A DNA stretch of 64,000 bases from Polaromonas sp. Its GTDB lineage: Bacteria > Pseudomonadota > Gammaproteobacteria > Burkholderiales > Burkholderiaceae_C. Below the pieces are notes generated by a model, which was given only the letters and a program-made list of their open reading frames with translations, had not been told where the DNA came from and searched no databases. Below, piece after piece: positions 49,744 to 52,626 of this stretch (its first letter is position 1; every line of letters starts with the position of its first letter). Made by a program: the position numbers and the translations under genes. The stretch is taken from NCBI GenBank assembly GCA_013297865.1, contig JAAFIP010000001.1, positions 248,001-312,000 of the forward strand. The letters are read 5' to 3'.

Positions 49744-49775
49744 AAAAAATACCCGCTTACGCGGGTATTTTTTAT
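49744..49775. terminator. Bidirectional rho-independent terminator
   Basis: AAAAATACCCGC and GCGGGTATTTTT around loop TTAC, with T-rich sequence on both strands. It serves the plus-strand liv operon and the minus-strand microprotein gene, whose stop is 12 nt away. Confidence 0.9.
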
Positions 49776-49786
49776 TTTGCGGCTAA

Positions 49787-49840
49787 TTACTTAGCTGCTG
49801 GGGCCTTCTTGCCGCCTTTTTTCTTCATTTTCTTTGCCAT
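49787..49840 (-). CDS. 17-residue lysine-rich microprotein
   Basis: The frame encodes MAKKMKKKGGKKAPAAK (eight Lys, no acidic residue, predicted strongly basic). The ribosome site GAAGGAAG lies about 7 nt upstream of the ATG. A strong terminator begins 12 nt after the stop. It therefore has its own compact transcription unit, convergent to livF and divergent from the ABC transporter gene at 50047. I do not recognise a family. A nucleic-acid-binding or secreted cationic peptide are both possible. Too short for ordinary gene finders. Confidence 0.6.
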   Translation of the reverse strand: MAKKMKKKGGKKAPAAK

Positions 49841-49905
49841 GATAGTCTTCCTTCGATTAGAGGGGGTTAATATTCACCTGCTTCGCAGCCGGTGCGCCAG
49901 TGTAA

Positions 49906-49926
49906 CCAATAAGTCGACCCTATTGG
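49906..49926. promoter_or_regulatory. Dyad between the microprotein and ABC transporter genes
   Basis: CCAATA and TATTGG flank a 9-nt centre that includes GTCGAC. It lies in the divergent intergenic region and could be an operator shared by both genes. Downstream, TTGACA (49960-49965) with GATATT (49984-49989, 18-nt spacer) is a plausible sigma-70 promoter for the plus-strand gene. Confidence 0.45.
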
Positions 49927-50046
49927 CCTACCACAACAACGAAATCTGCTGGTGTTGCGTTGACAATACTATCAAAAACTATCGATATTTAGGGTTTTCC
50001 CTAGTATTTCTGAATCCGAACTTACAAACTTTTTTGCGACTGTGCA

Positions 50047-51618
50047 ATGACAAGCCCCCCAATTGCCTCTGTGAAGGCATTCCGAGCCCGAGATTTTGCG
50101 GCCCTTTTGCTGTGCGCGCCTTTCTACGGCATGTTGATGCTGCTGATGGTGGAGGCTGCGCTGGCAGCGTTAACCACCTGGCTGGTGATACAAGCGGGGC
50201 AAGACCTGGCCAATGAAGATTTTCTGATCGCTGACTTTGCCTGGATCGTGCTGGCGCAGTCTGCCTCCTATGTGGTGGGCGCAATCAGCTGGATTTATGC
50301 CGAGCGTGCGGGCTTTGGTGCCTTTGGCCGCTACATGCTGCGCTTTACCCGCGAGAACCGCGGCGACGCACGGCTGTTTGCAGGCACCACGCAGCGCGAG
50401 AAGGTGGAGCCTTTTCTCACCAACGAAACCTTCCACATCATTTTTGAGTTGATCTACGAACTCGAAGCTGACCTCAAGCTGTTTTTCAGCCTGCTGTTCA
50501 ACTCCATCGTGCTGGGCTTTGCCATCGACGCAGGCCTGCCGTTTGTGTATGGCGCGGTGTTTGTGGGCCTGATGGTGCTGCAATACGCCGTGCGCAAATG
50601 GGTCAACCGCGTGTACGCCGAAAACCAGCGCGCCACCAACAGCATGACCGCGCGCACCTACACCGCCTGGGACAACATCACCAGTGGCAACCGCTATAAC
50701 TTCCGCATCTGGCATGCCGGCTTCAAAAAGCGGCTGCGCGACGCGCTGCACGCCCAGATCCGCGCCATCATGGCCAAGCAGGGCCTGGCAGCGTCCAGCG
50801 GCATCGCCTCGCTGCTGATCATCATGGCCTATCTGGCCTATGTGGCGGGCCACAACGCTGAGAACACAGCCCTCTTGATCGCACTGGCCGCCACGCTACC
50901 GCGCCAGATCGAGCTGTCCTACAACGTGCACGACCTGGCTGCAGGCTGGAACGACCTGCAGGCCATCTGGACGCGCATGACCGGCGCCAGCCAGGCCATG
51001 CAGGTGCACCCGGACGAAGACTTCAATGACCGCATCAAAATGCGCGAGCTGCGCCTGGTCTACCAGCCGCCTGACAGCAACGCGGCCCAAGCCACCACCC
51101 TACCGCTAGAGAGCTTTGCCGCGGCCTGCGCCATGCTGCCCCAACTGCAGCGCGGAGTGGTGCAGGTGCGCGGCAGCAATGGCGCGGGCAAGTCCACCCT
51201 GCTGGCTGCACTGAAACACCATATCGGCGGCACCGCCTACTACTGGCCCACCAGCACCAAGCTGGCCTTTGACTTTGCTGCTGCCGAGATGGCGGCCAAG
51301 GAAGAGGAAGTGGCGAAGGACATGAGCGAGGACAGCCTGGCCGAAGACGATGCCAGCGACACGCCAACGCAGACCGCGCACAGCGCTCCACCAGACGCCA
51401 CCCCAACCGCCAGCCATGCCGCAAAAACCGCAGGGTTCTCCTCGGGCGAGCGCCAGCTCCAGTCGCTCACCGAGATCGTGCGCCAGACCGATGCCAAGGT
51501 CTATCTGCTGGACGAATGGGACGCCAACCTGGACGCTGCCAACCGCGCCAAAGCGCAAAGCCTGATTGACGAGCTGGCAGCGCGCAGCCTGGTGGTGGAG
51601 ATTTCGCACCGGGGCTAA
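50047..51618 (+). CDS. Fused membrane/ATPase ABC transporter with atypical linker
   Basis: A 523-aa single-polypeptide half-transporter: four to six membrane helices in residues 15-305, then an ATPase domain with Walker A GSNGAGKST (near 377), signature FSSGERQLQSL, Walker B VYLLDEWDANLD and H-switch EISHRG. Between Walker A and the signature lies an unusual stretch of about 60 residues, acidic and then Pro/Thr/Ala-rich, where normal domains have the helical region. The family resembles peptide/cyclic-peptide exporters of the YojI/SyrD class only loosely. Substrate unknown; the divergent microprotein is a candidate partner. Confidence 0.8.
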   Translation: MTSPPIASVKAFRARDFAALLLCAPFYGMLMLLMVEAALAALTTWLVIQAGQDLANEDFLIADFAWIVLAQSASYVVGAISWIYAERAGFGAFGRYMLRFTRENRGDARLFAGTTQREKVEPFLTNETFHIIFELIYELEADLKLFFSLLFNSIVLGFAIDAGLPFVYGAVFVGLMVLQYAVRKWVNRVYAENQRATNSMTARTYTAWDNITSGNRYNFRIWHAGFKKRLRDALHAQIRAIMAKQGLAASSGIASLLIIMAYLAYVAGHNAENTALLIALAATLPRQIELSYNVHDLAAGWNDLQAIWTRMTGASQAMQVHPDEDFNDRIKMRELRLVYQPPDSNAAQATTLPLESFAAACAMLPQLQRGVVQVRGSNGAGKSTLLAALKHHIGGTAYYWPTSTKLAFDFAAAEMAAKEEEVAKDMSEDSLAEDDASDTPTQTAHSAPPDATPTASHAAKTAGFSSGERQLQSLTEIVRQTDAKVYLLDEWDANLDAANRAKAQSLIDELAARSLVVEISHRG

Positions 51619-51636: not shown

Positions 51637-52626
51637 TTACACGCCGTCGCGCAGCAGCTGGGCGTAATAGGCGGGGTCTACATTGCCGCCGCTGACGATG
51701 ATGCCTACGCGCTTGCCTTTCACATCCAGCTTGCCTTCGCTGTCGCCCAGCATGGCGGCGGCAGCGGCGAGACCGCCCGTGGGCTCGATGACCATCTTCA
51801 TGCGCTCGGCAAAAAAGCGCATGGTGTTGACCAACGCATGGTCGTCCACCGTCAGCACGTCTTTGAGCAGGGCTTTGCACACTGCGTAGGTCAAGTTGCC
51901 AGGAGATTGCGTCTGCGCGCCGTCCGCAATGGTGCGCGGCACATCAATTTTGACAAGCTGCCCGCTGCGAAAGCTCTGCTGAAAATCGTTGCCCGCCAGC
52001 GGCTCCACACCGTAGACATCGCACTGAGGCAGCAGATGTTTGGCAGCCACTGCGCAGCCAGACGTGAGGCCGCCACCGCCCATGCAGATCAGCAGGATGT
52101 CCAGCGTGCCTACCTCTTCGATCAGTTCCAGCCCCGCAGTGCCCTGCCCGGCCATCACATGGGCGTGGTTGTAGGGCGGGATGAGCGTCATGCCGCGCTC
52201 GGTAGCGATCTGCTTGCCCAAAGCCTCTCGGTCCTGGGTGTAGCGGTCAAACAAAATCACCTCAGCGCCATACTCCCGCGTGGCGCGGATTTTGGCCTCA
52301 GGCGCGTCTTTGGGCATGACGATGACGGACTGCATGCCCAGCAGCTTGGCTGAGAGCGCGATGGCCTGGGCATGGTTGCCCGATGAAAATGCAATCGCCC
52401 CGGCTTTGCGTTGCTCGGGGGAGAACTGTGCCAATGCGTTGTAGCCACCACGAAACTTGAATGCGCCCATGCGCTGGAAGTTTTCGCATTTGAAGAACAG
52501 CTCTGCGCCTGCACGCGCATTGGCCGTGCTACTGGTGTGGACCGGGGTGCGATGCGCTACGCCTTGAAGGCGGGCGGCGGCGGCGCTGATGTCGGCGAAG
52601 CTGATGGGGAGGCTGGGGTTGCTCAT
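51637..52626 (-). CDS. PLP-dependent threonine/serine dehydratase-like enzyme
   Basis: A 329-aa fold-type II PLP enzyme. The Schiff-base Lys is in GAFKFRGGYNAL, SSGNHAQAIA contacts the substrate carboxylate, and MGGGGLTSGC binds the PLP phosphate. Similar proteins are annotated as catabolic threonine dehydratase, serine racemase or threo-3-hydroxy-L-aspartate ammonia-lyase; sequence alone does not decide. No C-terminal ACT domain, so no isoleucine feedback. It is on the same strand as, and downstream of, a 2OG-Fe dioxygenase gene, separated by a repeat pair. Confidence 0.88.
   Translation of the reverse strand: MSNPSLPISFADISAAAARLQGVAHRTPVHTSSTANARAGAELFFKCENFQRMGAFKFRGGYNALAQFSPEQRKAGAIAFSSGNHAQAIALSAKLLGMQSVIVMPKDAPEAKIRATREYGAEVILFDRYTQDREALGKQIATERGMTLIPPYNHAHVMAGQGTAGLELIEEVGTLDILLICMGGGGLTSGCAVAAKHLLPQCDVYGVEPLAGNDFQQSFRSGQLVKIDVPRTIADGAQTQSPGNLTYAVCKALLKDVLTVDDHALVNTMRFFAERMKMVIEPTGGLAAAAAMLGDSEGKLDVKGKRVGIIVSGGNVDPAYYAQLLRDGV

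Follow-up and report, generated by a model that had tools for sequence, protein, structure and literature searches.

A lysine-rich micro-gene lies upstream of a rare ABC transporter family in Polaromonas and other genera

We found that a lysine-rich micro-ORF and a rare ABC transporter very probably form a functional pair, whatever the mechanism that joins them, because such a micro-ORF lies upstream of the transporter in all 13 genomes of the family that carry it, and none turned up in related genomes that do not. The pair was read in a 64,000-nucleotide stretch of contig JAAFIP010000001.1 (assembly GCA_013297865.1), hereafter the window. Our fuller reading, which we place a little short of an even chance, is that the micro-ORF would be a real gene for a soluble, disordered and strongly cationic micropeptide, paired as a conserved unit of two genes with type IV ABC transporters of a rare family. 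At 10 to 21 codons, such genes fall under the usual size limits of genome annotation, and few conserved genes with a link to one particular membrane machine may be smaller. The association is firm enough for experiments to start from it directly. The pair offers a testable case of apparent selection on charge alone, and a defined peptide partner could reveal the substrate of an unusual ABC family.

The micro-ORF occupies positions 49787 to 49840 of the minus strand, stop codon included, where it is supported by its reading frame, its homologues and coding-type conservation. Its 17 codons read MAKKMKKKGGKKAPAAK, the lysine-rich microprotein that an initial annotation had described, and the gene is indeed unannotated, as was anticipated there. 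The strong ribosome site named by the same annotation is also present, as a Shine-Dalgarno sequence AAGGA (49849 to 49853, minus strand) that lies 8 nt 5' of the ATG and was graded good; Polaromonas G031 has exactly the same leader, GGAAGACTATCATGGC. The micro-ORF is divergent from the ABC gene at 50047 to 51618. Not one lysine-rich micro-ORF (K ≥ 40%) arose in 1000 dinucleotide shuffles of the 294-nt region, and the same rule returned 7 ORFs from 169 kb of control DNA, five of which were the Polaromonas homologues or their internal starts; of the other two, one was the C-terminal end of a longer secreted protein, the second unrelated. A search for sigma-70 promoters of the micro-gene did no better than shuffles at 12 of the 13 loci, with none convincing, and searches for RNA families and tRNAs within the window found none.

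An intrinsic terminator hairpin of 13 bp with a U-tract (49744 to 49773, minus strand) starts 13 nt past the micro-ORF stop. It had been described as the micro-gene's own terminator; the hairpin and its U-tract are there, but it is better read as shared, because the structure running from 49773 to 49744 is palindromic, is flanked by A/T tracts on both sides and separates the micro-gene from the convergent liv operon, which it probably also ends. The dyad TAGGGTTTTCCCTA reported from the shared intergenic region exists as well (49990 to 50003, no strand) but is unremarkable and shows no sign of function. Genome-wide, its motif TAGGGN4CCCTA was counted 4 times and the reversed control 5 times, and none of the other 12 micro-ORFs has the motif within 150 nt upstream. 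We therefore gave the dyad little weight, and a regulon built on it was rejected for want of enrichment over that control. Judged by its sequence, a promoter-like site of the ABC gene (TTGACA-18-GATATT) lies at 49960 to 49989 on the plus strand, and TTGACA is also found upstream of the ABC gene in G035, G136, G228 and G230.

As the initial annotation had proposed, the divergent gene (50047 to 51618, plus strand, start codon not certain) encodes a fused ABC transporter, here an atypical half-transporter of 523 amino acids that is probably homodimeric. Its PF00005 match is above the cut-off; Walker A, signature, Walker B and H-loop are all present, with GxNGxGKS, S(S/A)GE, LDEWDANLD and SH found in 14 of 14 homologues. 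No transmembrane-domain family in Pfam was reported for any member of the family, no NCBIfam model rose above its cut-off among the best 25 matches listed, and matches to anti-phage defence models were confined to the ATPase domain. The structural model built on a 14-sequence alignment (pLDDT 70.9, pTM 0.60) predicts a six-helix membrane domain followed by a C-terminal nucleotide-binding domain, in an exporter fold whose best matches are the type IV exporters EfrCD, MsbA and BmrCD (Z 19 to 21). The fold is that of the type IV exporters in general (MsbA, BmrCD, EfrCD, TmrAB, PCAT1, McjD; Z ~20 over ~420 residues), but the transporter differs from them in sharing only ~14% identity, in its SSGE signature, in the WDANLD that follows Walker B, and in having the interval from Walker A to the signature taken up by an acidic, low-confidence insert.

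This insert, delimited by charge and low model confidence, spans residues ~409 to 462 of the nucleotide-binding domain (51271 to 51432, plus strand). It carries a net charge of -9 over residues 402 to 462, and pLDDT is below 50 at residues 402 to 464, which in the model suggests that it is probably disordered; it either replaces or masks the part of the domain where an ordered Q-loop and helical subdomain would be expected. The insert varies in length and sequence among homologues and is acidic in every one, at net -5 to -9 in 13 transporters and -4 in G593. A second acidic feature is formed by the residues at 121, 127, 134, 138, 140 and 142, which are invariant or nearly so across homologues and fall on, or just before, the third long helix (residues 126 to 159 in the model).

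The transporter family is rare. Within the bacterial family of the window, to which Polaromonas also belongs, it was present in 13 of 400 genomes and in 7 of 141 genera; these 400 genomes were drawn from a larger group. One more homologue (G593) was found among 300 genomes of the order and belongs to another family; among 249 genomes across the phylum only the window's own genome carried the transporter, and 72,556 plasmids carried none. In all 13 genomes, and thus in all 7 transporter genera, a lysine-rich micro-ORF of 10 to 21 residues lies upstream, divergent in 12 and co-directional in one (G164). Beyond the peptide of the window, the products are MAKKAKKMKKAKKAAPAAK (two genomes) and MAKRTKKSRKAKKAAPAAK (one) in Polaromonas, and elsewhere MTNATAKPKKSKKPVKKTPAK, MNNATSKPKKSKKPMKKAK, MNNATSKPKKTKKPAKKAPAK, MNNATAKPKKSKKPAKKMPAK, MSKKKHSKKPAKK (three genomes), MTKKKHSKKPAKKSVAK and MAKKKGKKKK, the 10-residue peptide of the co-directional case.

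Nine of these micro-ORFs are close to the transporter and four lie 1.8 to 2.4 kb away with other genes between, namely a LysR-type and an oxidoreductase gene in G063 (2.4 kb) and icd with a secreted protein gene at the Polaromonas loci. Two apparent exceptions fell away on these distances: G063 has its micro-ORF 2.4 kb upstream, and the first Polaromonas homologue, which adjoined a secreted Ala/Pro/Lys protein and might have spoken for a peptide independent of the transporter, has the transporter ~2 kb away. When the same filter was applied to 256 kb around the transporters, it returned one free-standing lysine-rich micro-ORF per locus, the other matches being internal or in-frame alternative starts of these micro-ORFs and, at two Polaromonas loci, a repeat stretch within a larger frame. 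Most of the micro-ORFs stand within a short terminator-bounded unit. The remaining gene neighbours of the pair differ from genus to genus, and the NNAT-type and SKKKH-type peptides each track one clade of the transporter tree. G593 has no micro-ORF within 20 kb around its transporter and a genome-wide pattern search there gave no clear candidate, so a transporter without the peptide may exist; this single case also has the least acidic insert. Both genes may have been passed on together on a single DNA segment, and the co-occurrence therefore weighs less than the count of genomes would imply.

Searches that were blind to the transporter gave a matching distribution. Among 84,980 species genomes scanned for short MAKK...KK...AAK ORFs, ten stretches were recovered, with free-standing peptides only in three Polaromonas assemblies; of the rest, two formed the C-terminal ends of longer secreted proteins and the others were unrelated. 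Searching 400 family genomes for the leader recovered the micro-ORF from four genomes only, that of the window and the three of Polaromonas, and the other leader matches read, or those with the variant GGAAGACCATCATGGCCCAGAA, either did not start with MAKK or opened a longer ribosomal-type protein. The pattern K.K.[ST]KKP.KK yielded in-frame micro-ORFs in five of 240 genomes, all five of them transporter-positive (hypergeometric ~4e-8 given ten positives in the 240, a value that ignores relatedness); two further candidates, L052 and L058, were discarded as lying in other frames of larger genes. MAKK..KK..K-stop had four matches in 190 genomes, three beside the transporter (one, in Polaromonas, ~2 kb away) and the fourth before gmk in another transporter-positive genome (G136). 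This last ORF, MAKKPKKHVKNSLK (L061 1500 to 1545), was set aside as incidental, since it lacks a separate terminator and runs right up to the start of gmk; it is possibly a second lysine-rich short ORF or a leader peptide. Across three transporter-blind searches, free-standing micro-ORFs thus appeared in transporter-positive genomes only, and same-genus genomes without the transporter (G185, G133, G331) had none in the pattern searches covering them; such searches detect this make-up only, and differently composed peptides in transporter-negative genomes would escape them.

The micro-ORFs change in the manner of protein-coding genes. Between related genera, NNAT-type ORFs are 0.79 to 0.86 identical, against 0.43 to 0.71 in their flanks; synonymous changes equal or exceed replacements in 6 of 6 pairs, and every indel consists of whole codons. 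In Polaromonas, a single synonymous change separates two of the ORFs, against an identity of 0.73 over the next 60 nt downstream; in the third ORF, replacements outnumber silent changes, and two of the replacements are K to R. The conservation of codons in relatives, which had been suggested as a check, therefore came out in favor of the frame, and together with the occurrence at 13 of 13 loci it lends strong support to the originally proposed tie between peptide and transporter. Such coding-type conservation marks the micro-ORF as a protein-coding gene and strongly suggests that it is translated. Sequence and length vary twofold among the peptides, while net charge stays at +7, +8 or +9 in all 13, and each contains at most one residue of the set FWYILVC (a Val). 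Selection thus appears to act on charge alone rather than on sequence.

How might such a peptide serve the transporter? We suggest a protein product that works in trans, since four genomes have kept the micro-gene despite the other genes that now stand between it and the transporter. Contact between the two would fit the association and the complementary charges, which are kept while sequence drifts, and it is opposite charge that points to the insert as the binding site. We tentatively propose, as a possibility somewhat below even, that the peptide docks on the acidic insert as a regulator of the transporter. The cationic peptide would bind by charge to this probably disordered insert, which follows Walker A and precedes the signature motif, near the Q-loop and helical subdomain where the ATPase couples to the membrane domain, and binding would switch or tune transport; a separate short transcript would let the level of peptide be set apart from that of the transporter. 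More tentative still is the specific form in which a polycationic micropeptide, in the shortest case the 10 residues of MAKKKGKKKK, selected for net charge and not for sequence, would form a fuzzy electrostatic complex with the ATPase-domain insert and so gate the transporter.

The peptide might instead be cargo. Made in the cytosol as a leaderless cationic peptide, it would dock via the acidic insert and the acidic residues of the third long helix, and once outside would serve as a signal, an antimicrobial or a surface-binding polycation. We consider this rather unlikely, and regulation of the transporter at least as likely as export. Besides the co-occurrence, export could draw on the predicted placement of the conserved E127, E134, E138, E140 and D142 on helix 126 to 159, and on closest folds that include the peptide exporters and transporters PCAT1, McjD and TAP; these stand among many others, however, and such matches are generic for type IV exporters, and G593, with no micro-ORF near its transporter, retains the same acidic helix residues. 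Pmt with the phenol-soluble modulins, and the leaderless bacteriocins, also combine short cationic leaderless peptides with an ABC exporter, and our pair resembles them in having a short cationic peptide without a leader and an exporter fold. The peptides of those systems act on membranes and are amphipathic or hydrophobic, whereas the micropeptides, lacking hydrophobic and aromatic residues save for at most one Val, are by composition none of these. The earlier suggestion that the transporter detoxifies the peptide found no support of its own.

Other readings dispense with contact between the two products. A histone-tail-like polycation (SKKPAKK) could bind nucleic acid, in line with the chromatin- or RNA-binding peptide of the initial annotation, or another polyanion, and share only physiology with the transporter, such as polyamine or polyanion balance; conserved charge rather than sequence would suit it, as would a Lys/Pro/Ala/Ser composition that resembles histone H1-like tails. 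It is nevertheless improbable, since it leaves unexplained both the position upstream of the transporter and the presence only in genomes with this rare transporter. Still less probable is that the pair merely travels as a block of DNA, with a short transcript that acts as RNA or is irrelevant. Rare, patchy distribution does suggest gain and loss of a block, and the majority of the ORFs do lie in a short terminator-bounded unit, but the ORF is conserved above its flanks with synonymous change and codon-sized indels, the micro-gene was retained after other genes intervened, and what the four peptide sequence types have in common is amino-acid make-up and charge, not RNA sequence. We give least credence to a cis-acting leader or attenuator in which lysine supply would be sensed through translation of the Lys codons, with the terminator governing the genes behind it. 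A short ORF rich in one amino acid is followed by a terminator, and in G164 the ABC gene is downstream on the same strand; yet the terminator cannot act on an ABC gene that is divergent in 12 of 13 loci and 1.8 to 2.4 kb off in four, and conservation of the peptide with free synonymous change argues for a product.

If regulation by docking is the right reading, the micropeptide would join the small proteins that are known to bind transporters and tune them. SgrT, MgtS and KdpF, the last of them hydrophobic, are very small products tied to one transporter. The general idea of small transporter partners is already known, for example from AcrZ-AcrB; AcrZ is a transmembrane peptide and small partner of AcrB (PMC7267776), which the micropeptide resembles in being very small, separately encoded and tied to one transporter. 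Unlike AcrZ or KdpF, our micropeptides are soluble polycations of 10 to 21 residues without hydrophobic residues. The strict genetic association expected of a small-protein regulator of a transporter was found at 13 of 13 loci. No description of the pair was found in the open-access literature, within which both the transporter family and the peptide family appear to be undescribed.

Several features of the surrounding DNA were recorded. An Ala/Pro/Lys-rich secreted protein (MNKLIAALVAGLFAAGAFAQ...KKMKKASMKAAAAK; L002 1280 to 1545) is encoded outside the window, at ~233.1 to 233.3 kb of its own genome, between a DUF192 gene and icd; related proteins occur in Polaromonas and elsewhere in the Burkholderiales, and searches of Pfam and NCBIfam gave no match to it. 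The C-terminus of these secreted proteins resembles the micropeptide (81% over 51 nt) and is a possible evolutionary source of it, but they differ in having a signal peptide and ~90 residues and in occurring without the transporter nearby. The gene adjoins the micro-gene in Polaromonas and lies 64 kb away in the window's genome. Adjoining the transporter, positions 51637 to 52626 encode a threo-3-hydroxy-L-aspartate ammonia-lyase (NCBIfam PRK07048 above its cut-off), which was not seen beside the transporter in the other genera read. Finally, MKKDEM repeats (MKKDEMMKKDEMMKKDEMMKK) end a reading frame at two Polaromonas loci (L065 18328 to 18390 and L073 16533 to 16600).
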